From a virus: 26,740 nt of DNA. The notes below the pieces were generated by a model that did no database searches, had not been told where the DNA came from, and worked only from the letters and a program-made list of their open reading frames with translations. Position numbers and translations under genes: made by a program. The DNA is taken from positions 1-26,740 of IMG/VR virus record IMGVR_UViG_3300010397_000081, one strand, 5' to 3'. Below are positions 333 through 26,740 of this stretch, one piece after another (positions within the stretch are counted from its first letter, which is position 1; every line of letters starts with the position of its first letter).

Positions 333-356
333 GTCGATCCCTCCCTCCGAAGTGGA

Positions 357-403
357 CGGCCGGCCGGTGTGCACCGGGGAGGTTAGTCACGCCGGGCCGG
401 CCG
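357..403. terminator. Inverted repeat between tail genes (possible weak terminator)
   Basis: The 80-nt gap between the major tail protein stop and the chaperone start holds a 9-bp inverted repeat, CGGCCGGCC at 357-365 and GGCCGGCCG at 395-403. A smaller palindrome, CCGGTGTGCACCGG, lies inside it at about 364-377. No T-run follows on either strand. It may attenuate transcription after the highly expressed tail protein, or it may be chance in a G+C-rich sequence. Confidence 0.3.
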
Positions 404-412
404 CCCACGCCA

Positions 413-1123
413 CTATGCGGACGCGTCTGCCTTCGCGGGGCCGCTGCGCGCGAGCGCGTGCGCGCCGGGTGCCCACGCGGTGCCGGACCAGTTGAAGTCG
501 TAGGACGAGACGGTGAACTTTTGCAGGCTGGCCCATGCCGCCGGTGTAGCCGGCACGTAGCCGAGCGTCGTCAACTCGGTGGCGTTGCTCGCATCGGATG
601 CGGTGATATTGCTGTCGGTGAACACGTCGCCGGGCTTGACGGCCGCCTTGTTCGGGATCGGGTTGCCGGCAGCGTCCACCATGGAGTACTTGCCCTGCAG
701 CGGCAGCGTCGCCGTGAACGTGGCGTACGTACCCGACGCGGCATTGCCGACATTGTCGGGCGGTGCCAGCGTCACGTTGCCGGTGAAGCCGCGCCCCATC
801 GGCGTCCCCGCCTTGTCAGTCTTCGGGTAGTACACGAACGTGGCGGACTCGCCGTCGTGCTCCAGCAGGAACATCTGAAACGACTCGGCGCTTTCGACAT
901 CCTGCACACCGGTGACGGTGAGCTGCCACGTCCGTTCGGTGGCTTCGCTGAAGCTCCCCTCTGGACAGAGCGTGTTCAGCGAAACCGGATCCCCGCCGGT
1001 GCTGGTGAGCCCCGCCTGCGTGACGGCGCACTGAAACGAGTGCACAACGGATTGCGCGTCGGTGACTTCGAGCTGGATCCACCGGACAAACAGCGGCTTC
1101 ACGTCCAGCACTGGTGCAGTCAT
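413..1123 (-). CDS. Major tail protein
   Basis: This 236-residue protein forms the stacked tube of a long non-contractile tail. The start ATG has a GGGAG site 8 nt upstream. The sequence is beta-rich and shows hallmarks of siphovirus tube proteins: an early FVRWIQLEV strand, a central RTWQLTVTG segment, FLLEHDGESATFVYYP, and a conserved-looking FTATLPLQGKYSMVD region near residues 140-155. Size fits the family. It lies between the tail terminator and the chaperone, exactly where tube proteins are found in HK97-type phages. The C-terminal 15 residues are Ala/Ser/Gly-rich and probably disordered. It contains a TCCACCATGGA motif at about 677-687. Confidence 0.88.
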   Translation of the reverse strand: MTAPVLDVKPLFVRWIQLEVTDAQSVVHSFQCAVTQAGLTSTGGDPVSLNTLCPEGSFSEATERTWQLTVTGVQDVESAESFQMFLLEHDGESATFVYYPKTDKAGTPMGRGFTGNVTLAPPDNVGNAASGTYATFTATLPLQGKYSMVDAAGNPIPNKAAVKPGDVFTDSNITASDASNATELTTLGYVPATPAAWASLQKFTVSSYDFNWSGTAWAPGAHALARSGPAKADASA

Positions 1124-1135
1124 GGTTGTCGCTCC

Positions 1136-1489
1136 CTAGCAGTACGTCGCACCACATGCGACGGTCAGTGTGTAAGACGGGTATGTCAGCTCCGCCACCG
1201 ACGCGACGGACGGCTCGACGCGTGACACGGCGAACGTCGGCCCGGTGAGCGCGCGCACCACAGCGGATGCGGCGTCGTCCAGTTCGGACTGCGCTTCGTG
1301 GCTGCCGTCGCGGAGTCCGATCACGACGATCGGCACGGTGAACACGTTGTGTTGCACGTCGACGGCGACGGTGGGCCGGTCCACCACAATGCACGGAACG
1401 GATCCGACGTCGTCGGGTTTGTAGGCGTGGACGGGCCACGGCACCGTCTGCAGTTCGGCGGCGATCTGTTCGCGGACGTCGCGGATCAT
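1136..1489 (-). CDS. Tail terminator protein
   Basis: This 117-residue protein starts at an ATG whose ATGA overlaps the stop of the connector gene, so the two are translationally coupled. The N-terminus (MIRDVREQIAAEL) is a helix followed by strands with PCIVVDRPTVAV and FTVPIVVIGLRD, then a helix with DDAASAVVRALTG. This alpha-beta order is typical of tail terminator (gpU-like) proteins that cap the tail tube and join it to the neck. Its place directly before the major tail protein supports the call. The product ends with a short Cys-containing tail (ACGATYC). Confidence 0.72.
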   Translation of the reverse strand: MIRDVREQIAAELQTVPWPVHAYKPDDVGSVPCIVVDRPTVAVDVQHNVFTVPIVVIGLRDGSHEAQSELDDAASAVVRALTGPTFAVSRVEPSVASVAELTYPSYTLTVACGATYC

Positions 1490-1806
1490 GCGATGCCCCA
1501 GACTTTGCCGGCGTCGATGTGCTGCTCGATGAGCCGCTCCACGTCGGGATCTCGTGACACGACACGGATGGCTGCCATATCGTCCCATCCGGCGACACCT
1601 TCAGGCGACAACCGTCGCTTGTAGAGCCGAGACGCGAGCAGCAGCACCGCCTGCACAACTTCGGGTGTGCGCACGTCGGACGCGCGGACGCGATCGTAGA
1701 TCCACGCTCCGGCGGCTTCGAGGCACATCGATAGGACTTTGTCGTCCTCTGTGGACTTCTTGCCGAGCATGGACCGTAGCGAGTCGACGTCCGCGCGTAC
1801 CGACAT
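1486..1806 (-). CDS. Head-tail connector (gp6-like adaptor)
   Basis: This 106-residue protein is largely alpha-helical. It opens with a helix containing VDSLRSMLG, then a long helix with LSMCLEAAGAWIYDRV, a helix with PEVVQAVLLLASRLYKRR, the loop SPEGVAGWD and a closing VERLIEQHI segment. That is the classic signature of the HK97 gp6 / phage QLRG connector family, which forms a ring beneath the portal. It follows the capsid gene by 14 nt and has an AGGGG site before its ATG. Only this protein and the tail terminator lie between capsid and tube, so the usual stopper and HK97 gp10-like genes are absent or unrecognised. Confidence 0.82.
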   Translation of the reverse strand: MSVRADVDSLRSMLGKKSTEDDKVLSMCLEAAGAWIYDRVRASDVRTPEVVQAVLLLASRLYKRRLSPEGVAGWDDMAAIRVVSRDPDVERLIEQHIDAGKVWGIA

Positions 1807-1820
1807 GGCGAACCCCTGTT

Positions 1821-3032
1821 CTACGGCGAGACGTGAACGGCACCGTTAGGGGCCGGCCGGTAAGATCCAAAGTAGGCTGCATAGGCAACTTGGATACCCA
1901 AGACGCTCGGCTCCACAACAGACAGTGCCCCTACCTGCTGCTCGTACAGCTCCAGCGCGAGTCCGTTGAGGACATAGAACGTGTTGTCGGTGATCGCCGG
2001 CGTGACGACGAGCCGCAGCCCGACCGGGTTGCCGGCGAACGATGTCGGCCCCGCCATCGACCCGGAAGCGTTCACCGGGTTGAGGAACGGGAACGTCATC
2101 ACACCGTCCGTTGAGGACAGCGACCCGAGCCGCGCCCAACCCAACGGGCCGGCCGCGATCGTGGTGGGCAGCGCGCCCGTCTGCGTGTAGACAAGCCCCG
2201 CCGCCTGATAGATCGCCTCGATCGTCGTCTGCGCGTCGGCGGCGTCGGCGAGCGCAACGTGCGAAGTGGACAACGCCATCTCCGTGACGGCCGCCTTCTC
2301 GGAGCTGATCGAGTAGCGGGCGGCGAGCTGCGACACGACAGCGTCGAGAGAGGCGATGCCCCAGTCGAGTAGCTGCCGGGACACGTTGACGTACCCGCCG
2401 ATCGTCTTCAGCGGCACGTTGTCCGACGTGATCGTGAACGCCTTGCTAACCAGCTCGTCTTTCTCGGCCGCCTGCACAGCCATGCCGAGACCGGTGCCGG
2501 CGTCCGGGTCGTTGAGCCGGGGCCGGCGGAACGACGGTCCACTGGGGATCGGATTCACGCCGACGGCGGACACGAGCGGCCGGGAGCTGTCGATCGTGTT
2601 GATGACAGGCCCGACGATCGCGTCGGGGAACACGCCGGTGAAGTTGCCGGACGTGACGTGCTGCGCGGCCCGGTGGTAGCGCTGCATCCGCTCCGTTGCG
2701 GTGCGACGCTTGTCGCCTTCGCCGATGATCCCCTGTAGATAGTCGTGCAGGTATTCGCCGGCCGTCCGGTATTGCACGGCTTCGGCCCCGCCGATCGCCG
2801 CACCGGCGAGCTGCGCCAGCCGCGTCTGCGCCGCCTCGTCCAGTGTGGACTCCCGCGCGAGTACCTTCACCTGCTCGTCGATCGACGCGACGCGATCCTT
2901 CGCGCGCGTGATCAGCTCCAGCTCGTTGCTGGACAGGTCCCGATTCTCCGACGCCGCCGTGTCGGCGAGCCCTTCGATGAACTTCTCTTTGCTCTCGCGC
3001 TCTTCGCGGAGCTTCGCAGCCATCACGTTCAT
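1821..3032 (-). CDS. Major capsid protein, HK97 fold
   Basis: This 403-residue protein builds the capsid shell. I chose the ATG at 3032 because AAAGG sits 7 nt upstream; a GTG at 3047 would add five residues and has no ribosome site. Residues 1 to about 100 are a charged coiled coil (MNVMAAKLREERESKEKF, ELELITRAKDRVASIDEQVK), the usual delta/scaffold domain removed by the protease. The shell domain follows: VINTIDSSRPLVSAVGV, PIPSGPSFRRP, a spine helix with VSRQLLDWG, and a C-terminal SVVEPSVLGIQVAYAAYFG strand. It follows the collagen-like gene with a gap of about 120 nt that may hold its own promoter. Confidence 0.93.
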   Translation of the reverse strand: MNVMAAKLREERESKEKFIEGLADTAASENRDLSSNELELITRAKDRVASIDEQVKVLARESTLDEAAQTRLAQLAGAAIGGAEAVQYRTAGEYLHDYLQGIIGEGDKRRTATERMQRYHRAAQHVTSGNFTGVFPDAIVGPVINTIDSSRPLVSAVGVNPIPSGPSFRRPRLNDPDAGTGLGMAVQAAEKDELVSKAFTITSDNVPLKTIGGYVNVSRQLLDWGIASLDAVVSQLAARYSISSEKAAVTEMALSTSHVALADAADAQTTIEAIYQAAGLVYTQTGALPTTIAAGPLGWARLGSLSSTDGVMTFPFLNPVNASGSMAGPTSFAGNPVGLRLVVTPAITDNTFYVLNGLALELYEQQVGALSVVEPSVLGIQVAYAAYFGSYRPAPNGAVHVSP

Positions 3033-3132
3033 TGCCTTGCCTTTCACTAGCGTCTGTCTTACGTGGACGCTTCGTGCGTTGGCAGCGACGGTGGCTCGCG
3101 ATGCGGAGCGGCTGTCGGGAGCGGTGGACTTC

Positions 3133-3152
3133 GTCCTATGTGGATTATGCTA
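3133..3152 (-). promoter_or_regulatory. Candidate capsid-gene promoter element
   Basis: Read on the minus strand, a TAGCAT hexamer (3152 to 3147) is followed by AATCCACAT. It overlaps the stop codon of the collagen-like gene and lies about 115 nt before the capsid start. The same arrangement, TAGCAT followed by TGTCCACAT, occurs just before the HNH gene at 8402 to 8388. No convincing -35 box is visible at 17 nt. The remaining gap (3033-3149) shows no gene. Confidence 0.3.
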
Positions 3153-3974
3153 ACCCGCCAGTACGGCCAGACGTGGCGGCGCTTGCGAATACGCGCCAGC
3201 GACGGAGCCATCGGGCGGAAATGCCGACTGCCCCGTCAGATAGATCGATGCAGACGGTGCTGTACCTAGCGAGTTTGCCGGCAGCGCGGTGCCGATCAGC
3301 GGATTACCTGAGTTGCATGTCCGCACCGTTGGCGCTGTGCCGCCCAGTATCATGGCTGCGATCCACACGAGAGTCTTCGGCGTCACCGGCACGTCACACG
3401 CGAGCTGAACTGTCGCGTTGGCGGCAACCGTCGTTGTGTCGACGTTGCCTAGATCGACGAGCTTCGCGGCCGGTGTGATGGAGCCGCTGTCAGCGTATAG
3501 AGCGAAATGTATCTTGTTGCCGGCGGTATCCTGGATGGCTTGCACACCGAAGCTGACGCCGAGGATGCGGCTGGCAGCGCCAGTCCACAGTGGTTGCCAC
3601 GTGATCGTCCCGACGCCCTGGGCGACACTCGCGGCACCAGTTGCTGGCGCGACGGGCCACCATCGGCCGGGCAGCATCGGCGACAGCGCCAACGGCGAGC
3701 CGTCGACGCCGGGGATCCCTTGCGGACCTGCCACGCCTTGCGGACCTGCCACGCCTTGCGGCCCTTGCGCACCGGCGGGCCCCGTCGGACCTGTCGGGCC
3801 GGGCACTGTGGAGTCCGCGCCGGGCGGCCCCGCCGGGCCGAGAGCCCCATCCGCACCGTCGACGCCGGGCGGCCCCGGCGGGCCGGCCGGGCCGACACCG
3901 CCGGGCAGTGACACCAGCTTCGTCGTCTCGTCCACCATGGACACGATCGCCGCATCGTCGTTCACAACGATCAT
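3150..3974 (-). CDS. Collagen-like head decoration/fibre protein
   Basis: This 274-residue protein has a short N-terminal strand region (MIVVNDDAAIVSMVDETTKL), then about 70 residues of Gly-X-Y collagen repeats rich in Pro (GPAGPPGPPG, GPQGVAGPQG), then a globular C-terminus of about 175 residues. Its start overlaps the previous gene's stop (ATGA). Collagen repeats in phages form trimeric fibres, and the C-terminal domain probably trimerises or binds. It sits between the prohead protease and capsid genes, so a capsid-surface fibre is more likely than a tail fibre. The stretch [13 protein letters not shown] also occurs in the tail fibre encoded at 22986-24185. The globular part (residues 100-274) resembles beta-rich virion adhesion modules, but I do not recognise a named family. 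Confidence 0.72.
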   Translation of the reverse strand: MIVVNDDAAIVSMVDETTKLVSLPGGVGPAGPPGPPGVDGADGALGPAGPPGADSTVPGPTGPTGPAGAQGPQGVAGPQGVAGPQGIPGVDGSPLALSPMLPGRWWPVAPATGAASVAQGVGTITWQPLWTGAASRILGVSFGVQAIQDTAGNKIHFALYADSGSITPAAKLVDLGNVDTTTVAANATVQLACDVPVTPKTLVWIAAMILGGTAPTVRTCNSGNPLIGTALPANSLGTAPSASIYLTGQSAFPPDGSVAGAYSQAPPRLAVLAG

Positions 3975-4498
3975 CGCGCGTCACCTTTCGAAATCGTGAA
4001 CGTGCCTTCGAGGCAGCGCTGCCAGTCGTCGGCTGCCGTCTGCACGTACAGATCCCACGAGTACGCGCCGATGCTGTCGGAGAGCAGCACCGTCGCGTCA
4101 GCGTCGAGCTGCAGCGTGACCGTCGCACCGTCCGGGCTGATCGTGGCCGGGATCTCGATCGTGTCCATGGTGGGCGGATCATCCACGCCTACGCCGGGCA
4201 CCGCGACGGCGAAGCCGGCGGCCGCGTCGAGCGCGACCACCGGCTCGGCTGGCGCGATCAGCGAGCCGACCGGGATCTGCGTGGACGGCTCGCCGTACAG
4301 CCCGTCGCCGAGCTGCAGCGCCACCCAGCCGTTGCCCATGTCCCGGACACTGTGGACAGGCACCGGCACGCCATCGAGATACCAGCGCCCCGGCAACGCA
4401 GTCTCCACAGCCACCGGCGTGCCGGGCTTGACGAGCTGCACGTCGACCGTCCACTGCGCGCCGGTGAACACTTCGACATCGAGCCTGCCAGTCCTCAC
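3971..4498 (-). CDS. Beta-sandwich structural protein (LtfC/Gp6-like)
   Basis: This 175-residue protein consists of two beta-rich halves. The second half ends with SWDLYVQTAADDWQRCLEGTF, a pattern resembling the small Ig-like/LtfC beta-sandwich domains of actinophage structural proteins, where a strand with Y-x-L is followed by a W/L-R/L-x-G strand. The gene is coupled to both neighbours by 4-bp overlaps and lies between the protease and the collagen-like protein. It is therefore probably a capsid-associated or decoration protein, perhaps the base on which the collagen-like fibre sits. No signal peptide or membrane segment is present. The family resemblance comes from pattern memory only. Confidence 0.55.
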   Translation of the reverse strand: MRTGRLDVEVFTGAQWTVDVQLVKPGTPVAVETALPGRWYLDGVPVPVHSVRDMGNGWVALQLGDGLYGEPSTQIPVGSLIAPAEPVVALDAAAGFAVAVPGVGVDDPPTMDTIEIPATISPDGATVTLQLDADATVLLSDSIGAYSWDLYVQTAADDWQRCLEGTFTISKGDAR

Positions 4499-5064
4499 GG
4501 CGCGCCCCGCCGCAGCTCCGCGAGCATTGCCCGCACATCATCCAGCAGCGGCGTCGGCGCTCGCTCCACATCGGACTCGCGGACACCGAGAACCTTCGCG
4601 CCACGGTACGCCGGATCGGGTGTGATGCCGACGCGATGCACATGAACGTTGTCGCGGACCACGACACCGTCAGCGTCGGTCTGTTCACGGCCGCGCGGCT
4701 CGAATTCGAGCGACAACCCGCCATGGCTGTGTTCGATCATCTCGCGGGTTTTGACTGCGTCCGGCTCGTACAGCCGGAACGTGGCGTACGCGCCGTCCTC
4801 GCGGTCCTCAATGGAGCGGCCGTAACCCAGGTTGTTCGTGAAGCCGTCGTCGTGTTCGTGCGCGAGCCGCACGCGGGACCACGCGCCCGGCGACGACTGT
4901 TTCGCGAACGCGCCGGGCACGAAACGCTCCCGCTTCATCTCGCCGGTCCACATGTCGTAGAAGTCGATCGTCTCTCCATAGGGGACGATCCGGCCGATGA
5001 CGGTGCGGCCATCACCTTCCACTGTGAACGCGTCGTCGAACGCGCGCACGTATCGAACGCCCAT
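4495..5064 (-). CDS. Prohead maturation protease, HK97/U35 family
   Basis: This 189-residue serine protease cleaves the capsid scaffold domain during head maturation. The N-terminal part contains GRIVPYGETIDFYD and ERFVPGAFAK, both characteristic of the family. The catalytic His is probably H69 in RLAHEHDD and the catalytic Ser is S118 in HGGLSLEF, followed by the FEP strand. Length matches the family. The start has a GAAGGG site 10 nt upstream and lies only 3 nt after the portal stop. The C-terminal helix (LLDDVRAMLAELRR) may bind the capsid scaffold. Confidence 0.9.
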   Translation of the reverse strand: MGVRYVRAFDDAFTVEGDGRTVIGRIVPYGETIDFYDMWTGEMKRERFVPGAFAKQSSPGAWSRVRLAHEHDDGFTNNLGYGRSIEDREDGAYATFRLYEPDAVKTREMIEHSHGGLSLEFEPRGREQTDADGVVVRDNVHVHRVGITPDPAYRGAKVLGVRESDVERAPTPLLDDVRAMLAELRRGAP

Positions 5065-5067
5065 CGC

Positions 5068-6480
5068 CTAGATCCCTTCGTTTCGGTAGCCGCCGATAAG
5101 CGTCGGGTCCGTCACCGGCTCGGGCGGCAGGTGCTCCATGAGCCGCGCCTCCGGTGGGGTGATCACGCCTGCCCCGATCAGCGTCTGGTAGATCGTGGCG
5201 CGGTCCCCAATGGACGGCCCGGTGACCTGCTCCGACTCGAACCGCATCGTCACCCCGCGCGGCAAAGCCCACCCGGAGAACGCGCACGAAATGTTGTACG
5301 CGATCGGCCGCAGCGTGGCCCGCCAAAAGTATTCGAAGTTACCTTCCACAGTGGAATACGTGAGCCCGTCGTTGACGGGCAGGCCGACAAGCCACAGCGG
5401 CACACCGAACGTGGATGCGATGCGGGCCTCGTCGAATTCGCGGAGCGCGATCAGGCCGACGTCTTCGGGTTTGAAGTTCAGCGGCGAATACGTCAACCCT
5501 CCAGAGAGGACTGCGGGCAGGATCCCGCGCGACATTGTCGCTTCGGCCCATGACGCTTTCACGGCGGCGGCCTGATCCTTCGTCAGCTTCGTCTCCGACT
5601 GCAGCACCGCCGTGGGGATGCCGTTGTCGGTGGCGAGCTGCGTGCCCCACGATTGCATCGCGTCGGCGCTGATCACGTTGCGCCAGCACGATTCGAGCGG
5701 GCCGACGCCGCGCACGTTGCCGGGCCACGTCTGATATCTAATGTGGAGGATGTCGCCCCGTGCGATGGGGATCCCACCCAACGAGTAGCGGGGCAGGCCG
5801 TCCGCGCCGGCTTCGATGTCGACATAGTCGGGGTTGATGACAACCCACCTAGCCACGTCGCCGGTGACCGGATCGCGGGCTGTGGGTGCGACGAGGGCTT
5901 CGCCACGGTGCAGCAGCGAGTTAACGAGCGCCTGTATCGCCTCCACAATGGACGTGTAGATTTCCGGCTCCGGGTTGTCGGCCCAGTCGGGTGGCGGGAT
6001 AGGCTGCCCGTTCTGCATCGCCTTGATCCCCATCGTGGCGAGCGTGCGCGAGATCAGGTCGGTGCATGCGAACACTGTGGACACGCGCCCGATCAGGCCG
6101 GTGCCACCGTTGAACGGGCCGCCCGACCAACCTATCGACGTGCCGCCCGGGTAGCCGTAGCCGCCGGTGAACCCGCCGCCGGTGTCGTAGTACGGCGGTG
6201 TCCACTGTGACGGGTAGCCCGGCCATCGGGCCGCCGTCGGAAAGCCCGCGTCGCCGGGCTGTGCGGTGCCGTCGCCGCCGTCAACGAAATCGCCCGGCCG
6301 TCCAATCTCGACATTCGTCGGGCCACGGCTGCCGCCAACAAACCAGCGCGGGCCGCCGCCCCACCAGCTGCCGCCGCCGGGGCCGACACGACGCCGGCCG
6401 CCGGGCTCCAGCGCCGCGCCGGGCGGCAGCCGGTTGGGCGGCACCGTCGAGCCGGCGTTGGCGCGCCTGAACAGTCCCAT
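5068..6480 (-). CDS. Portal protein, HK97 family
   Basis: This 470-residue protein forms the dodecameric DNA entry port. The family core starts near residue 130 (GRVSTVFACTDLISRTLATM) and includes HRGEALV, VINPDYVDIEAG, RGDILHIRYQ, WPGNVRGVGPLE and the wing/stem region with FGVPLWLVGLP and YSTVEGNFEYFW. The ATG has a GGGAGG site 5 nt upstream. The first 130 residues are unusual: they are rich in Gly, Pro, Trp and Tyr (SWWGGGPRWFVGG, PYYDTGGGFTGGYGYPGG) and probably disordered. The gene follows the large terminase by 10 nt and overlaps nothing. Confidence 0.92.
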   Translation of the reverse strand: MGLFRRANAGSTVPPNRLPPGAALEPGGRRRVGPGGGSWWGGGPRWFVGGSRGPTNVEIGRPGDFVDGGDGTAQPGDAGFPTAARWPGYPSQWTPPYYDTGGGFTGGYGYPGGTSIGWSGGPFNGGTGLIGRVSTVFACTDLISRTLATMGIKAMQNGQPIPPPDWADNPEPEIYTSIVEAIQALVNSLLHRGEALVAPTARDPVTGDVARWVVINPDYVDIEAGADGLPRYSLGGIPIARGDILHIRYQTWPGNVRGVGPLESCWRNVISADAMQSWGTQLATDNGIPTAVLQSETKLTKDQAAAVKASWAEATMSRGILPAVLSGGLTYSPLNFKPEDVGLIALREFDEARIASTFGVPLWLVGLPVNDGLTYSTVEGNFEYFWRATLRPIAYNISCAFSGWALPRGVTMRFESEQVTGPSIGDRATIYQTLIGAGVITPPEARLMEHLPPEPVTDPTLIGGYRNEGI

Positions 6481-6490
6481 CGGTGCCTCC

Positions 6491-7882
6491 CTAGTAGACG
6501 GCTACCCCGCCGCCGTCGTTGTGCTCCAAAGCCCACAGCGCGGCCGTCGCTGCGATCAGATGCGTCGGCGGCGTGGCAACCTTGCGATCCCAAACCCATC
6601 CGGCCGGCAGCGCCGCCGCCGTCGCGTGGATCGCGTCGGCGAGCAGCAGCGGCGAACGTCCGAAGTGGATCCCGCCGTCTGTGACGCGCTGCGCCAGCGC
6701 CGCGCACGCGGACGGGTACGCGCCGAACTTCAGCGGCAACTGCGCCACGTCGTGCAGCCGCTCCGCCTGATCCATGAGATCGACGAGCCCGCCACGCGCA
6801 TCGAACGCCACACCGTCCACTGTGTACCGGGCGGCGAGATCCCCGAGCCGCTCGGGAAGCCAACCTGCACCGGGCCGCGCGTCGACAAGTACGAGCACCG
6901 GCCGGCCGTCGTCACCGTGGAAGGCGGCGGCGATCGCGGCGCTGGTGCGATCCCATGCCGCGTCGCATCCCCACCCGATGGGGCGGCCGTCCGTGGGCGG
7001 GGCCGGCACATCCACGGTGAGCGCGTTGACGGTGTCTTCGTCGAGCACGGTGTCCGCTGTGGACTCACTCCACACGCCGAGCCGTTCGCGTGCGAACGTG
7101 CGACGAGACAGCGAGTCCAGCTCGCGCAGCACCGCGTCCGGCATGAGCCGGCGGCCGTAGGCAGGATTCGTGGCTGCGTGTACGCGCGGGTCCCGGTAGT
7201 CGTCCGTTTCGTCGGCGCACCATTCCCAATACGCGAGGCGCGGCGACGCTCCACTGTGGCCGCGACGACGCAGCGACATCAACACTTCGGACTCGTATGT
7301 GCCGGCCGACGACAGGTACCACACCTGCGGGTTGGGGCGCGCGGCCACGGACGGCAGCAGCGCGGCCATCACGTCGGCCGACACGGCGAACGCCTCATCC
7401 ATGATCAGACAGTCGGGGCTGAAGCCGCGCCCGGACGTGCGCGTGCGGGCGATCATTTTGAAACGGGCTCCATTGTGGAATTCGATCTGCTCGCCGCCGG
7501 CCGTGACGCGGACCCGCTTGACGTGCTTGGCGATCGCATCGGTTTCGCAGACGTCGCGCATGAGCCGCCAGGTTTCCTGCGCGGTGCGGTACTCGTGCGC
7601 CGAATAGAGGATCAGTTTCTCGCCGTACAGCAGCGCCCCGGCGAGCGCCCGCGCCGGCACCAGATACGACTTGCCGTTCTGGCGCGGCACCATGGCCACG
7701 ACTTCGAACGCGGCCCACGTGTCCGATGTGGAACGTGACGATTCGGTGATGATCTCGTCCTGCCACGGATCCAGCGGCAGGCCGGCGAGCCGGGCCAGCT
7801 CGGCGGCGTCGCCGTCGGCCCGGCCGCGCGGCAACATGCGGCGGGTGGCCCGCTGCGCGCCGATCAGGCTAGCGGCGGGCAC
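6491..7882 (-). CDS. Terminase large subunit
   Basis: This 463-residue packaging motor cuts concatemers and pumps DNA into the prohead. The ATPase domain shows the Walker A variant VPRQNGKS (residues 65-72) and Walker B CLIMDEAF (158-165). The RNase H-like nuclease domain has GCDAAWDRTSAA, a middle acidic motif FDARGG and the last aspartate in LLADAIHATAAA. A GTG start at 7882 has GAAGGG about 9 nt upstream and lies inside the end of the small-subunit gene, overlapping by 14 nt. Longer in-frame extensions would run through that gene, so I rejected them. Confidence 0.93.
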   Translation of the reverse strand: MPAASLIGAQRATRRMLPRGRADGDAAELARLAGLPLDPWQDEIITESSRSTSDTWAAFEVVAMVPRQNGKSYLVPARALAGALLYGEKLILYSAHEYRTAQETWRLMRDVCETDAIAKHVKRVRVTAGGEQIEFHNGARFKMIARTRTSGRGFSPDCLIMDEAFAVSADVMAALLPSVAARPNPQVWYLSSAGTYESEVLMSLRRRGHSGASPRLAYWEWCADETDDYRDPRVHAATNPAYGRRLMPDAVLRELDSLSRRTFARERLGVWSESTADTVLDEDTVNALTVDVPAPPTDGRPIGWGCDAAWDRTSAAIAAAFHGDDGRPVLVLVDARPGAGWLPERLGDLAARYTVDGVAFDARGGLVDLMDQAERLHDVAQLPLKFGAYPSACAALAQRVTDGGIHFGRSPLLLADAIHATAAALPAGWVWDRKVATPPTHLIAATAALWALEHNDGGGVAVY

Positions 7883-17500: not shown

Positions 17501-17503
17501 CGG

Positions 17504-19146: not shown

Positions 19147-19189
19147 GGCTGTCCCACGCTTTAGGAACTTCGATGAATAGCCTCGCGGC

Positions 19190-19213: not shown

Positions 19214-19240
19214 CAAGCGTTACGAGACTGTGACTTGCCT

Positions 19241-19290: not shown

Positions 19291-19320
19291 ACCCCTACCA
19301 GCACAGATAGGCAACCATAC
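19285..19320 (+). promoter_or_regulatory. Candidate integrase-operon promoter, leaderless
   Basis: CCGACA (19285-19290) and TAGGCA (19308-19313) are 17 nt apart, and the ATG at 19321 begins 8 nt after the -10 box. No ribosome site precedes the ATG, so transcription probably starts at or next to it. The -35 box overlaps the right arm of attP, so integration would bring host DNA close upstream and could change integrase expression. Confidence 0.45.
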
Positions 19321-19754: not shown

Positions 19755-19756
19755 TC

Positions 19757-21328
19757 ATGAATTTCGCTCACGAAGTCGAACGGCTCGTCGCCGAGCTGCG
19801 CAAGCGCGACGCGGATCCGTCCTATGCGGACGCTCCGATCGAAGACGTGTACGGCCGGATCTCGCACGTCAATACGGGCAGCGACAACGACAAGCCGATC
19901 GTGCAGATCTTCTACCTGCTGACGGACATGCTCGGCCGAGACGTCCGGCTCGGCGACACGTTCATGGACACCAACCGGTCGGCGTGGAAGGACGACGGGC
20001 CGCGCCCCGGATGGGACGCCGTCGTAGCGAGAGTCGCGGCCGGCACCGTGGCCGGCGTCCGGTCCGTGATGGTGGACCGGATGATGCGCCAGACGGGACA
20101 GCTCGTCGACATGATCCGCGCGTTCGAACGTAACCATGGTCGCGACGTCGGCTTCACCGTCTTCGACTTGGACGCGGACCGTTCGTACAACACGAGCCGG
20201 CCGGACGACACGCGCGACTTGGAAGGGCGCGTGAGCGCAGCGAAACATGACAGCGCAATTAAGTCGCGGAAGATCCGGCGCGGCAACCACGCGCGCCGGC
20301 TCGCCGGCAACGGCCGCAACGGGGCGGCCCCGTTCGGGCATCGGTGGAACGTCGCCGACGTCGACGACGCGCAGCTTGCCGTGGAGCGCGCCGCGATCGC
20401 ATGGGGCATCGTGCGGATCACCGACGGCGGCACGTGGGGTGAAGTGGCGCGCCGGTGGAATGAGGATGGCGTGTTGCCGCGCCGGCACCCTCGGTGGCAT
20501 TCGCAGAACGTGCGGGCGTGTCTCACGCTGGCGCGGCATGCGGGGCTGCTCATACACGCCGGTCACATCGTCGGCACGATCGTCAGCGTCGACGGCCCGA
20601 TCGTGACGTTGCCGCAGTGGCACGCCTTCGACAATGTGGTGTCGAAGCGGCAGCGGGGCCGCCAGCGGGGCGACAAGGTGTCCCGCTACTACGCGTCGGG
20701 GACGGTGTGGTGCGGCGGCACACGCGACGATGGCACGCCGTGCGAGACGCTGTTGGTGGGCACCGCACAGTCGGGTGTGTACGCGGACACCGGCGAGCGG
20801 CGGTACGGGTACAAGTGCCCGCCGCGCGGCTGCCGTGGCGTCACTGTGGACGGCCGGGCCGTGGAGGAACACGCGTCGTTCCTCACCGGCAAGGCGATCG
20901 TGGCCGGCGACAACATGGCGCTGCTGGCGCACGTCGGGCACGACGACCGGCTCGTCGAGCTGGACAAGCTGATCGCGGACGCGGAGTTGGCGATCGACAA
21001 CAAGGAGCGGCAGCGTGACGCGGCGACGCACCCGTCGCGGCGTGAGCGGTTCGTGGTGCAGCTCGTCGACGCGGAGGCCCGCCTGTCTGCGCTGCTGACC
21101 GAACGGGACGGGTTGCATGAGACGGTGCGCCGGGAGCGGCTGAAGCCGTCCGATGTGGATGAGCTGTCCGCGCTGTGGGATAGCCCGACGACGCCGGCCG
21201 CGAAGCGTCGCACGATCGTGCGGCAGTGTGTGCCGGGCGGCTTCTACGTGCGGCCGGTGGGTAAGGGTGCGCGGCTTCGCGGCGAGGCGATCTTCACGCG
21301 CTTCTACACGAAGGGCGGCGACGCGTGA
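19757..21328 (+). CDS. Large serine integrase
   Basis: This 523-residue enzyme recombines attP with a host attB. The catalytic serine is probably S36 in VYGRISHVNT, after an N-terminal extension of about 30 residues that is longer than usual. The resolvase domain continues with DTNRSAWK, GPRPGWDAVV, SVMVDRMMRQTGQLVDMI and the E-helix (LEGRVSAAKHDSAIKSRKIRRGNHARRLAGNG). NGAAPFGHRW opens the recombinase domain; the zinc ribbon uses WCGG, PCET and KCPPRGCRG (about residues 315-360). A coiled coil follows (LDKLIADAELAIDNKERQR). GGAAGG lies 9 nt before the ATG. It is coupled at its 3' end to the next gene by GTGA. Confidence 0.93.
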   Translation: MNFAHEVERLVAELRKRDADPSYADAPIEDVYGRISHVNTGSDNDKPIVQIFYLLTDMLGRDVRLGDTFMDTNRSAWKDDGPRPGWDAVVARVAAGTVAGVRSVMVDRMMRQTGQLVDMIRAFERNHGRDVGFTVFDLDADRSYNTSRPDDTRDLEGRVSAAKHDSAIKSRKIRRGNHARRLAGNGRNGAAPFGHRWNVADVDDAQLAVERAAIAWGIVRITDGGTWGEVARRWNEDGVLPRRHPRWHSQNVRACLTLARHAGLLIHAGHIVGTIVSVDGPIVTLPQWHAFDNVVSKRQRGRQRGDKVSRYYASGTVWCGGTRDDGTPCETLLVGTAQSGVYADTGERRYGYKCPPRGCRGVTVDGRAVEEHASFLTGKAIVAGDNMALLAHVGHDDRLVELDKLIADAELAIDNKERQRDAATHPSRRERFVVQLVDAEARLSALLTERDGLHETVRRERLKPSDVDELSALWDSPTTPAAKRRTIVRQCVPGGFYVRPVGKGARLRGEAIFTRFYTKGGDA

Positions 21329-21576
21329 GCCGGCCGCTGGAGACGATCACGGGCCGGGAGCTGGCGTTGGCGCTGCTCGACGAGCAGGCGGCGGCGGCGC
21401 GGCCGCTGACGTTGGACGACGCGCTGCGCTACATCGGGGCGGCGTGGGTGTGCGGCGGCTGCTCGTCGCTGTGGCTGGCAGGTTCGGCGTGCCGGCTGTG
21501 TCACCGGTGCCGGTGCGGGGATCGGGTCGGCGTGGACGGGCAGCCGTGCCCGGTGTGCGACCACCGGCTCGACTAG
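21325..21576 (+). CDS. Cys-rich small protein coupled to integrase
   Basis: This 83-residue protein starts at a GTG overlapping the integrase stop. The N-terminal half is helical (GRELALALLDEQAAAARPLTLDDALRYIG); the C-terminal half has eight cysteines in the pattern CGGC, CRLCHRCRC and CPVC, so it probably forms two zinc ribbons. Tight coupling to the integrase suggests a shared role, perhaps modulation of recombination. Known serine-integrase directionality factors vary widely in fold, so no firm call can be made. It is followed by a terminator hairpin. Confidence 0.68.
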   Translation: MSRPLETITGRELALALLDEQAAAARPLTLDDALRYIGAAWVCGGCSSLWLAGSACRLCHRCRCGDRVGVDGQPCPVCDHRLD

Positions 21577-21594
21577 AGATCCACAACCCGGGAG

Positions 21595-21628
21595 CGCCCC
21601 GGTCGCCATCACGGCGGCCGGGGCGTTT
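21595..21628 (+). terminator. Intrinsic terminator after integrase operon
   Basis: The arms CGCCCCGGTCGCC (21595-21607) and GGCGGCCGGGGCG (21613-21625) pair over 13 bp with one G-T pair and a 5-nt loop, followed by TTT. It lies 19 nt after the stop of the Cys-rich gene. The rest of the gap up to 21749 has no further clear feature except the ribosome site for the next gene. Confidence 0.75.
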
Positions 21629-21749
21629 CGCGTGGGCGGCCCCGCCAGCGGCCCTGAGAGCCACGGAGAGCGCCGATCAGGCCCGGGGCGGTGCTCGCCC
21701 GCCGTACCGTGGATCGTGCGGGCAGCTAGAGGGCGGGGAGACGGTGCGG

Positions 21750-21911
21750 ATGATCATGGATCCGGAGCGGCTACGGCCGTACGTCGGTGTCCCGGCGGAG
21801 CCGGCGCTCCAGCTCGACGAGCCACGGGCACGCGCGGTGGCCCGCATGCTCGACGAGCTACGCCGGCTGGCGCGCGAGGCTGACGTCTCAAGGGGTGGCG
21901 TCGCCGCGTAG
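21750..21911 (+). CDS. Small helical protein, last plus-strand gene
   Basis: ATG 21750 has GGGGAG 9 nt upstream; GTG 21744 in frame is possible. The 53-residue product starts MIMDPERLRPYVGVP and is otherwise a helix (DEPRARAVARMLDELRRLAREADVS). Length and charge suggest a small DNA-binding or protein-binding helix. The gene stands between two terminators, so it must have its own promoter or depend on readthrough. Function unknown. Confidence 0.5.
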   Translation: MIMDPERLRPYVGVPAEPALQLDEPRARAVARMLDELRRLAREADVSRGGVAA

Positions 21912-21920
21912 CGCCACAGT

Positions 21921-21957
21921 GGAGCGCCCCGCCGATCCTGGTCCGGCGGGGCGCTCC
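21921..21957. terminator. Bidirectional terminator between convergent modules
   Basis: The arms GGAGCGCCCCGCC (21921-21933) and GGCGGGGCGCTCC (21945-21957) form a perfect 13-bp stem with an 11-nt loop. It lies 9 nt after the last plus-strand stop and 13 nt after the last minus-strand (tail) stop, so it ends transcription from both sides. A copy of the dispersed motif (CCACAGTGGA) overlaps its left base at 21914-21923. Confidence 0.82.
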
Positions 21958-21970
21958 CATCGTCTTCGGG

Positions 21971-22345
21971 CTATGCCTCGCGTTTCGTTGTCTTCGCCGC
22001 CCGGCCGGCCGGCTCGTCCTCGGCGAGCCCGGTGCCGCTGCCGGCCGCCCACGCGGTGCCCGTCCAATGCACATGCGACGAGCCGTCACGCAGGATCACG
22101 TACGTCGGCGCGATCCACGCCGTGGCCGGCGTCGCGGTCACACCGGCACACTCCGCCAGATTGGACGGGGCGGCCGCGCCGGCCGGACCCCACGAGTCCG
22201 GCGTGCCGGCGACCGCTGTCGACGCGAGACTGTCCCATCCGTCGCCGCCCGGGTCGGCGACCTGCCTCGCTCGCGCAGACTGTTGCGCGGCGGTGCCGGC
22301 ACCGCCGAGCAGATGATTCGGGTCCGGGCTGAAAGTGCTAGGCAT
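21971..22345 (-). CDS. Last gene of tail module, hypothetical virion-associated protein
   Basis: This 124-residue protein starts at an ATG with GAGGAGA 6 nt upstream. It opens MPSTFSPDPNHLLGGAGTA, has an Ala/Gly/Ser-rich middle with APSNLAECAG and PTYVILRDGSSHVHWTGTAW, and ends in a charged tail. Short proteins at the end of tail operons are often receptor-contact or chaperone proteins. I recognise no family. The strands near residues 78-105 look like a small beta module. It lies immediately upstream of the bidirectional terminator. Confidence 0.6.
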   Translation of the reverse strand: MPSTFSPDPNHLLGGAGTAAQQSARARQVADPGGDGWDSLASTAVAGTPDSWGPAGAAAPSNLAECAGVTATPATAWIAPTYVILRDGSSHVHWTGTAWAAGSGTGLAEDEPAGRAAKTTKREA

Positions 22346-22356
22346 CGTTGTCTCCT

Positions 22357-22974
22357 CTAATCGAAATCGGTGATGAGCACGCCGCACGGTCCACAGAGGA
22401 CGTCGGCTTCCATGTCCACGCAGCCGATCGGCACATCGTAGTTGTCGCATCCGGCCGTGCGGCAGATGGAGTGACGCACATAGGTCGGCTCGGCGGCGGC
22501 GACGAGGCCGGGCGCGGACGGCGTGCTCGTCGGTGTGGTTTGTATAGCGATGATGTGCCCGGTGATCGTGTTGCTGACGTTGGTTCCGTCGCGGTACGCC
22601 ACGCCGCCCGACGTCTGCGTGACGCTCTGAACCGAGCCGGCGTATCCATAGTAGACAGCAACCTGATATGCGGTGACGGCCACGACAGGTATCTGCGTGA
22701 ACCGTCCGGTGGGCAGGTTGATGGTGATCTCCTTGAACGCCTGATTCGCAAGCACCACAGAGAATGCCGCGCCCCATGTGGCGTACGGCACCGGCCGCGT
22801 GACCCCGCCGACGACGCTGCTGAACGGGCCGCCGCCAACGATCGACCCGCTGGGGATCGTGAGGCCGTTCTTCCACAGCTCCAACTTGTCGGCGAGCGCC
22901 TTGATGTCGCGGGGTATGTCCACGGTGGATGTCGGATCCGGATACGGCAGCCCGTAGAAGCTTGTGGTTCCCAT
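22357..22974 (-). CDS. Tail fibre/tip protein with C-terminal Cys4 knuckle
   Basis: This 205-residue protein starts at an ATG with GGAGAG upstream. It begins MGTTSFYGLPYPDPTSTVDIPRDIKALADKLE, a common start of actinophage tail-fibre proteins, followed by a beta-rich region (SIVGGGPFSSVVGG, LPTGRFTQIPVVAVTAY). The last 40 residues hold ICRTAGCDN and VLCGPCGVLITDF, a four-cysteine knuckle. A similar knuckle ends the preceding, larger fibre, so both proteins probably share a tip that binds zinc, the baseplate or the host surface. It follows that gene by 11 nt. Confidence 0.75.
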   Translation of the reverse strand: MGTTSFYGLPYPDPTSTVDIPRDIKALADKLELWKNGLTIPSGSIVGGGPFSSVVGGVTRPVPYATWGAAFSVVLANQAFKEITINLPTGRFTQIPVVAVTAYQVAVYYGYAGSVQSVTQTSGGVAYRDGTNVSNTITGHIIAIQTTPTSTPSAPGLVAAAEPTYVRHSICRTAGCDNYDVPIGCVDMEADVLCGPCGVLITDFD

Positions 22975-22985
22975 CGTTGTCTCTC

Positions 22986-24185
22986 CTACTTTTCGAATCC
23001 GATTATCACGCGATCGCATGCGCCGCAGATAACGGCTAGCGCGTCGGACGGCACCGGCACGTCGATCGCTATCCCGCTGTTGCCGCAACCGTCGGTATCA
23101 CAGACGACTGTATGGGTCGGCGTGTTGTCGTCTACGGTGGACGGCTCGGCACGGCCGGGGCCGGACGCCGATGTCATCTGCGTCGCCACCCAATGCACGA
23201 CAAGCCCCGTGGCAGCGGTCGCACCAGGGTTATATGCCTTCGCCACAAACGATGTGAGCGACGTGGAGCCGTCCGACCCACTGGTGGCGTAGCCGTTGGT
23301 GGTCGCCGCACCGGTGGTTATCACCGGCGCTTGCGTGAAGCGACCGGCCGGATAGGTGACCACAACCGAACCGCCCGTGTCGGGGTTGCGGTCGGCTATG
23401 GCTGCCTTGCCGGCCGCCATCGCGAACGGCACCGACGGCCCCGGCGGTCCGGGGACGCCTTGAATTCCTTGGATTCCTTGGTCGCCTTTGACGCCTTGGA
23501 TTCCCTGCTGACCGGTGTCGCCTTTGACGCCTTGGATTCCCTGAATACCTTGGATACCTTGGGATCCCTGCGCGGCGAGCACACTCCAATACGTTGGCGA
23601 TGTCGCGGGTGGATGGTTCGCGCCGGCCAGGATCGCAATGTACGAGCTGCCGCCGACAGACACGGCATCGTCGACGGCGTAGGAGGTCGCGGAGGACCAC
23701 GCGCCGCGCCATATCAAACCTTCCGCGCCGGGCGGTCCGGGCACAGTGGAGTCCGCGCCGGGCGGGCCGGCGGATCCTTGTGCGGCGAGAATATTCCAGT
23801 ACGTCGGCGACGCTGCGGGTTGATGGTTTGTACCGGCAGCGATCGCAATGTATGAGCTGCCGCCATCGGATACCGCGTCGTCGATGGCGTACGCAGTCGC
23901 GGCCGACCATGGGCCGCGCCATGCCAACCCTTCGGGGCCGGGTGGTCCGGTGCCGGCACCAGCGTTTCCCACCATGCCGATCGCGAGCGCGCTGTCCCGG
24001 TCGAGCAGCACGGTCACGTTCTCGCCGACGATCGCGGTGAAGCCGCCGAGCGGCACGCCGGGCATCGGCCCGCCCGGCAGCAACACGTCCAGTGTGGACG
24101 CGTGCACGGCGGTAACGGTGCCGGTGCGCATGATAACGGCGCGTTCGTTACGCGCGTACGGGTATTCGTCTTCGGGCCGTGTCAT
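22986..24185 (-). CDS. Modular tail fibre: tandem carbohydrate-binding-like repeats, collagen stalk, Cys4 tip
   Basis: This 399-residue protein starts by an ATGA overlap. Order: an N-terminal baseplate-like beta domain (1-80: [37 protein letters not shown]), two tandem modules of about 50 residues ([20 protein letters not shown] and [20 protein letters not shown]) resembling carbohydrate-binding modules of the CBM5/12 type, a collagen stretch ([19 protein letters not shown]), a beta-rich head ([13 protein letters not shown]), and finally [10 protein letters not shown] plus [13 protein letters not shown]. It is the probable host-recognition fibre. The Gly-X-Y part shares [13 protein letters not shown] with the capsid-module collagen-like protein. 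Confidence 0.8.
23572..23927 (-). repeat. Internal duplication within the tail-fibre gene
   Basis: Two DNA segments of about 150 bp, at roughly 23572-23718 and 23780-23927, encode near-identical modules (WRG(P/A)WS(A/S)AT(A/S)YA(I/V)DDAVS and (H)xPA(A/T)SPTYW). They are separated by a short collagen-like linker. The DNA copies differ at many silent positions, so the duplication is not very recent. Confidence 0.75.
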
Positions 24186-25231
24186 AGCAGCCGCCTTAGT
24201 GTGACGGCAGTGGCGAGCGACGGCACCGCGAGCGTGACCGCCCGCACCATGTACGTGAGCCCGAGGTATTCGACGACGTCGCCGGACTCCAACCACGGTG
24301 CGGGCAGGATCGGCATCGACTCGTAACTGTCCAGCTCGGACAGTCGGGCGCGCAGCAGGTCGGCGGCGAGCGTGTCGGCTTGCGCTTGCGTAGTGGCCGC
24401 GTCGCCGTTCTGCCGGTCGGTGACAACGTACGGCCGGTACCAGGGCGGCGGTGCGACGCCGGTGATCGCGGCCGCATTGGCTGCGCCGATGAGTCCGACG
24501 GTGTCGGAGCCGCGTGTGACGAGCACCCGCGCGTCGGTGGGTGCGCGGACGTGATGGCTGGTGCCGCCGTCGGCGACGCGCCGTTCGACGATCGCGGCCG
24601 GCGCGGGCGGTGTGGCCGCGCGCACCAGGGCGGCGACGTCTCCGTTGTCGGCGAAACGCAGCGCCACGCCGAGCGCGTCCGCAGTGGACAGGCAAGTGTC
24701 CCAACGGCCGGCCCCGAATTCGGCGACGGTGGCGAGCGGCACCGGCAGCGCCGGCACCGCCGACACGTCAGTCGTGCGTGACAGCGCGAGCACGCACGCG
24801 TCGGCGACGAGCTGGCGCAGTGTGCCGGACAGGACCGTGTCGGCCTCGTACGGCCGGCCGTTGACGATCTCGCCGGGATCGGCGGCGGTGATGACGGCCC
24901 CGCCGGTGGACGACAAGTCTTCGGCGATATCGGTGACGCACAGCACCGGCAGCCGGTAGATGATCGGCTGCAGTGTTTGCACACCGACGGTGGCGCGGAT
25001 CCACATCCCGGCGGCAAGCCACGACGGGATCGGCGCGGTGCGTAGCGTCATCGAACGCGGCACCGCCTGTGACGCGTCGTCGCGTAGCTCGCCGTCCACT
25101 GTGGGTAGCTGCGCGAGCGGTGCCGTGTTCGGGTCTTGCGGCTGCTGTTCCCACACGTCGACGGTGAGCGCGACGGCGACGCTGGTGATCCGCTGGCGGC
25201 CGCCGGGCGGCGGGTTGACGGGCGCTCTCAC
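24182..25231 (-). CDS. Tail-associated protein (Tal-like, DUF5047)
   Basis: This 349-residue protein starts at a GTG overlapping the upstream stop (GTGA). N-terminal strands ([34 protein letters not shown]) and the sequence between [34 protein letters not shown] and the C-terminal [21 protein letters not shown] follow the pattern of actinophage minor tail proteins often annotated DUF5047. This type sits at the tail tip between the Dit-like ring and the fibre. Position supports the call. No peptidase motif is visible. Confidence 0.75.
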
Positions 25232-26055
25232 GGCTCGATCCCCGTCGGCGACAGGTACATATCCCGGTAGGTTTTGCCGACGAACTGCAGCGCCAGCTCA
25301 GTCGCGGGCGGCCCGATCTTGCCGTACTCCAACCCGGCCGCCGCAGCGTTCGTCTTCTGCACGCCGTACGTGACGGGCTTGAATGTGGCCAGCTCGCCGG
25401 GGTCGACTTCGAGGAAGTCCACTGTGAGCAGACACGCGCCGGCGGTGCCGTACCGGGTTTCGCCGATGTCGAGCGGCGCGAACAGCATCTCGTCCACAAC
25501 GGACTGGCAGGCGGCGGGGATGCGCAGCTGGCATGGCGAGCCGGTGGACATCGTGTCGACGATCGCGTCACGTTCGGCGTGACTGCGCGCATACAACGTG
25601 AGCGTGCCGTTGGACAGCGAACGGACGTCGCCGGCTGTGACCGCGCCGGGCACGGCCGCCACGTAGTAGGGGCTGATCCGGCCGGCGCGTGTCCGGTCAG
25701 TCACGTCGACGATGATGACGGCCACATACCGCAGTGCGGGGAACACGGCGTCACGGATCCACGGCATGCCGCCGGACGGCACCGCCCCGGATGTGGCCGA
25801 CCCGAGCGGCACCTGTCCGGTCGAGTCGAACACTTCGTAGATGACAGGCGTGTCGAACGGGTACAGGTAGTCCTCATAGGACGCGGCGTGTGTGACGCTG
25901 TCGACGACGATGGAGCCGCCGATCGTCTCGGCCGGTGCGGTGCCGACCCGCCGCATGATGGTGATGACGTTGGTTGCCGGGTCGAGCCCGGACACGGCGA
26001 TCACGTTCGGCTGGCTCGGCCCGGTGGCTGTGGTGATCGTGACGACGACAGCCAT
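25228..26055 (-). CDS. Distal tail protein (Dit-like minor tail protein)
   Basis: This 275-residue protein starts at an ATG directly adjacent to the tape-measure stop. It has an Ig-like N-terminal strand series (MAVVVTITTATGPSQPN, IAVSGLDPATNVITIMRRVG, YEDYLYPFDTPVIYEVF) followed by a galectin-like second half (LSNGTLTLYARSHAERDAIV, CQLRIPAACQSVV, FLEVDP). This matches the actinophage minor tail protein that follows the tape measure and forms the tail-tip ring. Such genes lie one step before the Tal-like protein. The C-terminal 50 residues are helical and contain YGVQKTNAAAAG. Confidence 0.72.
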   Translation of the reverse strand: MAVVVTITTATGPSQPNVIAVSGLDPATNVITIMRRVGTAPAETIGGSIVVDSVTHAASYEDYLYPFDTPVIYEVFDSTGQVPLGSATSGAVPSGGMPWIRDAVFPALRYVAVIIVDVTDRTRAGRISPYYVAAVPGAVTAGDVRSLSNGTLTLYARSHAERDAIVDTMSTGSPCQLRIPAACQSVVDEMLFAPLDIGETRYGTAGACLLTVDFLEVDPGELATFKPVTYGVQKTNAAAAGLEYGKIGPPATELALQFVGKTYRDMYLSPTGIEP

Positions 26056-26740
26056 CTACAGCCTCCCGCGCGTACGTGTCGCGGCGAGCTGCGCCGCCAC
26101 TGTGGACTGCACGTCGCCGCGCAGCGCGTACCGGATGGGCTGACCGTCCAGGTACAGGCGGGGCTGTAGCAGCGTCAGCCCGCCGTGCGGCGTGACGGCC
26201 GGCGGCGGGGCCGGCGCGGACTGCAGGTTCGGATTGTTCGACCCGTTCAGCCGGGGATCGTTGAGGAGCTTCTTCGCGTTCGGCGACAGCGACGCTTCCA
26301 GCATTAGGTGGACGGTTCGCGCGCGGGCCACATCATCGATTGCCGCTTCGGCTTCTTTCGCGCCGGACACCGTGACTTTCGTCTTCACTTCCTTCGGCGT
26401 GTCGAGCAGCTTGTCGACGTACGTTGTCGCGGCCGTCTTCGACAGTCCCAATTGGACGGCGGTGTCGATGAGCTGCTGCCGCTGCCTGCCGTAGTTCTCC
26501 ACGATCTTGTCAGTCGACTTCCCATGTTTGATCGCGTAGTCGAGCTGCGTCTGCGTGAGGTCGGCGATCGCGGCGGCCGTGCGGTCGATCTGCGTTTCGG
26601 CCTCGCGACCCTTCTGCTTGTTGAGATCGAACGCGGTGCGCGCGTGGTTCACGGCCCGGCCGGCTTCGCCGACGATCTCGCGCAGACTCGCGAAGTCTTC
26701 TTTGACCGCGATCTGTTTCGCATGCGTGTCGCCGACGACA
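26056..26740 (-). CDS. Tape measure protein, C-terminal part (runs off right edge)
   Basis: The frame is open from the right edge to a TAG at 26056, giving 228 codons. It encodes long charged helices (RAVNHARTAFDLNKQKGREAE, YAIKHGKSTDKIVENYGRQR, TYVDKLLDTPKEVKTKVTV) and a Gly/Pro-rich end with LQPRLYLDGQPIRYALRGDV. KEVKTKV and helix repeats of this kind, followed by a minor tail protein, are typical of tape-measure C-termini, which set tail length. Most of the protein, including any transmembrane region, lies outside the window. The internal GTG at 26652 is not the real start. Confidence 0.85.
   Translation of the reverse strand, partial: VVGDTHAKQIAVKEDFASLREIVGEAGRAVNHARTAFDLNKQKGREAETQIDRTAAAIADLTQTQLDYAIKHGKSTDKIVENYGRQRQQLIDTAVQLGLSKTAATTYVDKLLDTPKEVKTKVTVSGAKEAEAAIDDVARARTVHLMLEASLSPNAKKLLNDPRLNGSNNPNLQSAPAPPPAVTPHGGLTLLQPRLYLDGQPIRYALRGDVQSTVAAQLAATRTRGRL

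Follow-up and report, generated by a model that had tools for sequence, protein, structure and literature searches.

The window analysed here, all 26,740 bases of IMG/VR virus record IMGVR_UViG_3300010397_000081 (G+C 67.5% by base counts), is phage DNA in which a short, nearly palindromic element, GTCC-N5-GGAC, recurs throughout the lytic genes. Several window proteins match phage families (terminase, portal, protease, capsid, tail). Terminases of actinobacteriophages, for instance that of Arthrobacter phage BaileyBlu, share about 33% identity with the one in the window. A simple gene caller finds 48 genes, which form a long operon running leftward and a short module running rightward:

1..18803, minus strand: leftward lytic operon for replication/recombination, packaging, head and tail; rich in sites, which thin out above 16.2 kb
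18804..19320, no strand: stretch without called genes separating the two transcription units
19321..21911, plus strand: rightward integrase module, comprising a serine integrase (19757-21328) and small genes; sites not in excess
21971..26740, minus strand: continuation of the leftward operon with tail genes, linked to position 1 via contig L010

Two opposite-strand genes are called within the first of these segments, at 8430-8522 and 16870-17430. Both ends of the record fall within the tape-measure region, and L010, a contig of the same phage, links position 1 with position 26740 through the closing 1,875 bases; the map is therefore circular, at about 28.6 kb. The L010 piece carries seven additional sites.

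The first-pass annotation of this DNA had reported roughly sixty near-palindromic TCCAYWRTGGA-type sites between 347 and 26107, and left three explanations open: repressor sites, DnaA titration sites or a host-genome signature. The word occurs exactly six times in the window, 43 times with at most one mismatch and 90 times with at most two, making sixty a fair count by eye. The sites do lie within that span, though it is slightly short, with further sites at 114 and 26451. Markov controls of order 1 to order 4 (100 each) gave means of 0.4-3.0 at up to one mismatch, none reaching 43, and 200 shuffles preserving protein and codon usage gave a mean of 7.4 and a maximum of 15. These controls rule out a chance origin and make the excess stronger than was claimed. 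When every 4-letter dyad with a gap of 0-19 is scanned without bias, GTCC-5-GGAC comes first (26 observed, 0.99 expected), followed by TCCA-3-TGGA (19 against 0.67). With a fitted 15-bp matrix and a cut-off of 9 bits the window has 95 sites, order-3 Markov sequence 7.6 and the 200 codon shuffles a mean of 25.5 (maximum 37), while a 19-bp fit finds 83 at 10 bits or more, against 4.8 in Markov sequence. Position 26101 counts as a site in the looser 95-site set only. The 26 exact GTCC-N5-GGAC sites, each 13 bp and without strand, are:

108..120, exact site
1277..1289, exact site
1744..1756, exact site
1961..1973, exact site
2106..2118, exact site
2838..2850, exact site
3930..3942, exact site
5203..5215, exact site
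7052..7064, exact site
8383..8395, exact site, overlapping one of two TTGTCCACA matches
8681..8693, exact site
8949..8961, exact site
12875..12887, exact site
13522..13534, exact site
13914..13926, exact site
14425..14437, exact site
14740..14752, exact site
15025..15037, exact site
19819..19831, exact site within the integrase module, one of its two matrix sites
22389..22401, exact site
24087..24099, exact site
24329..24341, exact site
24677..24689, exact site
25492..25504, exact site
25870..25882, exact site
26445..26457, exact site

A further 57 matrix sites (19-bp fit, at least 10 bits) span 345..25106, also without strand, each running from -6 to +6 about its centre. The centres are:

351, 680, 960, 1917, 2265, 2543, 2734, 3062, 3139, 4570, 4810, 4980, 5023, 5350, 5505
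5742, 5947, 6306, 6664, 6821, 7474, 7727, 8209, 8416, 9421, 9713, 9837, 10361, 10593
10875, 11269, 11504, 11832, 11984, 12132, 12517, 12734, 13132, 14222, 14308, 14656, 15106, 15364
15427, 15667, 15819, 16029, 17603, 17898, 18169, 18750, 19001, 21154, 22650, 22924, 23136, 25100

One of these 57, GTCCATTGTGGAA (18995..19007), is non-coding and lies between the divergent lytic operon and integrase module.

The same element is found in relatives of this phage, which are contigs of one phage family recruited by portal and terminase scans and read whole. Against codon shuffles, exact GTCC-N5-GGAC is in excess in the window (26 against 3.1), G001 (19 against 5.4), G010 (9 against 2.5), G011 (11 against 4.6, the weakest excess of the five) and G012 (28 against 6.7), but not in G002 (0 against 0.7) or in the distant G013 (4 against 3.3) and G014 (2 against 1.6). 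The four motif-bearing relatives hold 44-105 matrix sites to the window's 83, the five genomes being 26.7-30.2 kb long. A 3-letter dyad scan against shuffles puts TCC-5-GGA at the top in four genomes (the window, G001, G010, G012) and in second place in G011. In G002 and G013 no dyad compares with it; G014 has a small CAAC-4-GTTG set (n=6). An ATC-17-GAT seed in G001 recovered codon periodicity alone and was discarded. Protein identity to the window is 26-76%, with means of 50-56% for the four motif-bearing relatives. The integrases are less alike (32-41% identical in the pairs shown, against 48-58% overall), and in all five motif-bearing genomes they contain the Pfam Resolvase (serine) domain. 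G002 shares the backbone, and its integrase is a tyrosine enzyme (Pfam Phage_integrase) flanked by the same neighbour genes. The protein tree left the branching order of family members unresolved.

Neither G009, which has sites in common with part of G010, nor L013-L015, fragments near G001, was counted as independent. L016 (5-6 kb) gave no excess, though its genes were not called and the shuffle is uninformative there. In raw counts made without shuffling, the exact element occurs 0 times in BaileyBlu, once in Rousseau and four times in Celia (minus its last 493 bases). Fishing across all viral contigs with ACTGTCC-N5-GGACAGT returned 100 stretches. With the fishing site masked, the 80 loci L060-L139 yielded strong excess in L082 and L068 (both G012) and L129 (this phage), and the 20 loci L140-L159 yielded the marginal L141 (5 against 0.82, P 0.0015), whose only match among the family proteins compared is to part of the primase-helicase. 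Viral-contig scans with integrase and primase gave nothing useful. Among bacterial genomes one scan found no relatives and another found six, with terminases 25-29% identical; 396 Actinomycetota genomes held no relative at E 1e-80, in a search run without a positive control.

Comparison of equivalent codons between relatives separates the word from the peptide that it encodes. At peptides that are the same or differ by at most one residue, the four motif-bearing relatives keep window sites in 10/21, 11/20, 10/19 and 6/14 cases (37/74 pooled). G002 keeps 0/16, writing these peptides (YSTVE, TSIVE and so on) with other codons; its tally is 1/54 when sites from all five genomes are considered, and 2 of 38 alignable window sites when the peptide is ignored. 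Because the word is kept in motif-bearing relatives and recoded in G002 at near-identical peptide, selection acts on the DNA. Exact positions are also shared between relatives far above chance, though the majority of sites have shifted; 15 of 63 window sites coincide in position with sites in G001, against 0.11 expected. A by-product of codon or protein composition, for example of frequent Ser-x-Val-Asp, would account for the quarter or so of matrix sites that survive shuffling (25.5 of 95) and for the preferred reading phase, which holds 52 of the 87 window sites located in genes. It does not account for an observed count far above all 200 shuffles or for the other codons with which G002 writes near-identical peptides; this reading is rejected, its probability being next to nil.

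Pooling the window, G001, G010, G011 and G012 gives 338 sites, in which the outer arms are palindromic, the centre is A/T-rich (A or T at the central base in 269) and one inner arm (GT) is better conserved than the other. At the three TCC/GGA pairs both partners are consensus in 299, 316 and 266 sites. An oriented model, in which GT is kept in one inner arm and the other is free, beats a symmetric one (log-likelihood gain 107, against 35 +- 4 for simulated symmetric data). The perfect two-sided word GTCCACWGTGGAC is absent from all five genomes, where about 10 would be expected in sum. The score threshold itself induces some negative correlation between half-sites, so the deficit was checked in simulated sites as well: whatever the centre, perfect arms occur twice in the five genomes, against 15.8 in the simulation. 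This may reflect sites tuned to an intermediate affinity or an asymmetric contact, two readings that the data do not separate.

A 13-base inverted repeat could form a short hairpin in RNA, acting as a terminator or RNA-protein site. Hairpins predict compensatory changes and G:U pairs, and neither is in excess: complementary pairs other than the consensus fall below expectation at both of the innermost pair positions (12 against 29.7 and 8 against 18.0), and G:U pairs do not exceed A:C mismatches (118 against 123). Perfect palindromes, moreover, are under-represented. RNA hairpins are therefore rejected, and we regard them as barely credible. Titration of host DnaA, one of the explanations first put forward, takes its appeal from the resemblance of the better-kept half, GTCCAC, to a DnaA box and from two TTGTCCACA matches that are indeed present in the window, on the minus strand at 8389-8397 and 15819-15827. 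The box nevertheless falls within only 3 of the 338 pooled sites, the oriented matrix lacks the box's TT 5' of GTCC, and the symmetric outer arms would be left unexplained. DnaA boxes are accordingly rejected as the basis of the array, a role for them being very improbable.

The suggested host-genome signature is not supported. The oriented form GTCCNNTGTGGAC occurs 11 times in the window (26.7 kb), five times in G001 and six in G012, whereas the 60 Actinomycetota genomes searched, about 179 Mb in all, contain it only 63 times (31 of them have a match), and it is frequent in none. As the host may lie outside this set and G010 and G011 have no GTCCNNTGTGGAC, the test is a partial one. The perfect word has 23 sites in 18 of 396 genomes, which says little given that the five phages themselves lack it. 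A related idea is that the sites serve a host protein, or mark the DNA for modification or for passing as self, with the integrase module spared through frequent exchange. No phage gene is recognised as a candidate reader and the integrases are less alike than the proteins overall, as this idea would have it; besides the scarcity of GTCCNNTGTGGAC in Actinomycetota, however, the five phages span 58 to 69% G+C, which does not suggest one common host. We consider it improbable.

The arrangement of sites along the genomes bears on what might read them. Pooled, only 21 pairs of sites lie less than 80 bp apart, against 64.8 for random placement, the deficit being significant in four of the five genomes (G011 is the exception, P 0.17), and spacing is more even than random in the window, G001 and G012 but not in G010 and G011. 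Sites within called genes number 299 of 338 and those between genes 39, at densities of 2.45/kb in lytic-strand genes, 3.29/kb between genes and 0.79/kb in opposite-strand genes. Pooled orientation relative to the gene is even (103 same, 101 opposite); single genomes lean, G010 at 9:18 and G011 at 12:6, or 12:28 and 15:7 by another method. The integrase module, within limits set by the analyst, holds six sites over the five genomes against 33.0 expected (Poisson P ~1e-8), and TCC-N5-GGA occurs there 6 times against 5.0 in shuffles, as against 239 and 86.8 elsewhere. In the window the stretch 16.2-22.25 kb, picked after inspection, is site-poor (7 against 21.5). The interval separating the two transcription units contains a site in the window, G001 and G010; in G012 the site there falls inside a short helix-turn-helix (HTH) gene, and in G011 none exceeds the threshold.

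The scarcity of close pairs, the even spacing in three genomes, the lack of orientation bias and the location of most sites within genes would all suit a DNA-organising, segregation or packaging protein that requires roughly even coverage of the genome, without transcriptional silencing. For such a structural role the missing excess in the integrase module is unexpected, unless the module was recently imported, and G002 has homologous packaging and head genes yet no element. We consider this alternative unlikely.

We favour the first of the explanations originally left open, repressor-type sites, and propose, with a probability of about 0.5, that the element is an operator or silencer site through which a DNA-binding protein switches off the lytic operon and leaves the integration module free. 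We infer protein binding, silencing and the tie to an integration/immunity module each indirectly, the silencing role from the anatomy of the array and by analogy with what is known of L5, phiC31 and SPbeta. In the proposed mechanism the GTCC and GGAC arms, 5 bp apart, would be read by a sequence-specific, probably dimeric protein, which would occupy dozens to about a hundred moderate-affinity sites, mostly well apart, distributed over the one long lytic operon and close to where it begins. The lytic genes of the prophage would thus be kept silent, by a block to initiation at the control region and to elongation or DNA access elsewhere. The integrase module, running in the opposite direction and without site excess, could be expressed apart from the operon. 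G002, with its different integration module, lacks the array; this one case fits a reader that is encoded alongside the integration module or otherwise linked to it. A bolder version, which we advance only tentatively, is that nearly the whole lytic genome is covered, at one site per ~270-590 bp, by deliberately sub-optimal targets of a so far undescribed DNA-binding protein other than a standard HTH repressor. The result would be direction-independent silencing of elongation or a new form of phage chromatin, from which the integration module would be exempt, and the whole array would be lost on module swap.

Several observations weigh against the operator proposal. No HTH match in Pfam or PHROGs and no recognisable repressor gene is found among the 48 called window genes. 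Among the genes scanned in the motif-bearing phages (a minority of the relatives' genes), HTH genes occur in G012 only, where HTH_26 and HTH_17 genes adjoin the integrase region, and no repressor-type ortholog under 260 amino acids is common to all five. The majority of sites lie inside genes. The site-free integrase module could result from repeated import of the module out of motif-free phages, and the imported-looking opposite-strand gene at 16870-17430 is also site-free. The 5.4 kb of L009, the sister of G011, contain no excess. Finally, the G002 contrast is a single case, from a 19-kb partial contig in a family whose backbone tree is unresolved.

Two window genes were considered as the source of a binding protein. 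The leftward gene at 10129-10593 encodes two C2H2-like zinc fingers, below Pfam cut-offs. By pattern search the two-finger version is confined to the window and G010, with a partial relative in G001, so its product is a weak candidate binder. The rightward gene at 16870-17430, opposite to the operon strand, encodes 186 amino acids and was rejected as a repressor; among phages it matches, weakly, only a hypothetical protein from tailed viruses of haloarchaea (Haloarcula; 26% identity, E 4e-4). It has no match among viral contigs, and its AlphaFold model is unusable (mean predicted local distance difference test score, pLDDT, 32.9).

The stretch between the transcription units has further features of its own. 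The gene-free regions of the window (18804-19320), G001 (6753-7238), G010 (9668-10438) and G011 (7696-8183) each contain ATCGACRAAG followed by a long stem. The arms of this stem pair within each phage but vary in sequence from one phage to the next, as judged from single-sequence folds and by eye. A TCAACG-like word follows the stem in the window, G001 and G010. The region could be a structured RNA, a replication origin or an attachment site; an Rfam scan of the window at gathering thresholds gave no match.

Elsewhere, the window encodes two collagen-like tail proteins, both on the minus strand (3150-3974 and 22986-24185), the second with a 210-base tandem repeat and a match to a carbohydrate-binding module. 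A small phage protein at 12145-12405 (minus) matches a Gram-positive cell-wall anchor (LPXTG), and short proteins judged by eye to resemble it occur in G001, G010 and G011. The 73-residue protein at 16083-16304 (minus) belongs to PHROG 7499, to which PHROG assigns no function. Copies 66-71% identical to it lie in L037 (5429-5638, minus) and L039 (11572-11793, minus), at differing genome places across the three relatives, as if the gene were mobile.

Dispersed repressor sites are known from few phages, and prophage silencing by binding away from promoters is understood mainly from one oriented, asymmetric system, the operators and stoperators of cluster A phages (L5, Bxb1, TipsytheTRex). Two papers describe these as 20-30 asymmetric 13-mers that are oriented with transcription, occupy promoters and short gaps between genes, and are recognised by a repressor that has two domains and is monomeric (PMC6550527, PMC9283540). 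The array described here resembles them in having many short sites of one motif dispersed genome-wide, 83 in the window and 44-105 in relatives, with the motif varying somewhat between relatives. It differs in the density of sites (44-105 in 26.7-30.2 kb), in its palindromic arms and in having no recognised cognate repressor. The first-pass annotation was right that cluster A sites are asymmetric, but the present element is also not fully symmetric. Orientation-dependent stoperators are rejected on the pooled split of 103 to 101, and the 299 of 338 sites within genes depart from the intergenic placement of cluster A. A cluster A system would further have a phage-encoded cognate repressor with an N-terminal HTH that stops elongation at the sites; the 48 called window genes gave no HTH match, though such a protein may have gone unrecognised.

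The repressor sites of phiC31 are inverted repeats. No phiC31-type repressor was recognised here with Pfam or PHROGs, and the two systems are compared by description. L5 and phiC31 are presented as two systems with 18-30 dispersed repressor sites, a range given for both (PMC4557955). SPbeta, a phage with a serine recombinase, likewise has a repeated element, SPBRE, read by a master repressor; SPBRE is a 15-bp motif in the promoter regions of about ten genes and the repressor, MrpR, has a tyrosine-recombinase fold (PMC10516654). Unlike SPBRE, the sites here lie mostly within genes. The BPs gp33 operator offers a parallel to the oriented model, having an evident palindromic site in one half and a variable copy of it in the other, but its sites are few and intergenic, and its 12-bp palindrome is of other sequence (PMC4557955). 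No description of a GTCC-N5-GGAC element in phages was found in the literature searched, at the level of abstract openings and in a collection with few subscription journals.

This array, then, would work like the dispersed operator systems, yet it departs from two defining features of cluster A, orientation and intergenic place. The family offers a denser, orientation-free and gene-internal array together with a natural contrast of presence and absence between relatives. It would let one ask whether direction matters, how the affinity of sites is tuned, given the shortage of perfect ones, and by what route about a hundred sites are acquired or shed by a genome upon a change of regulator.

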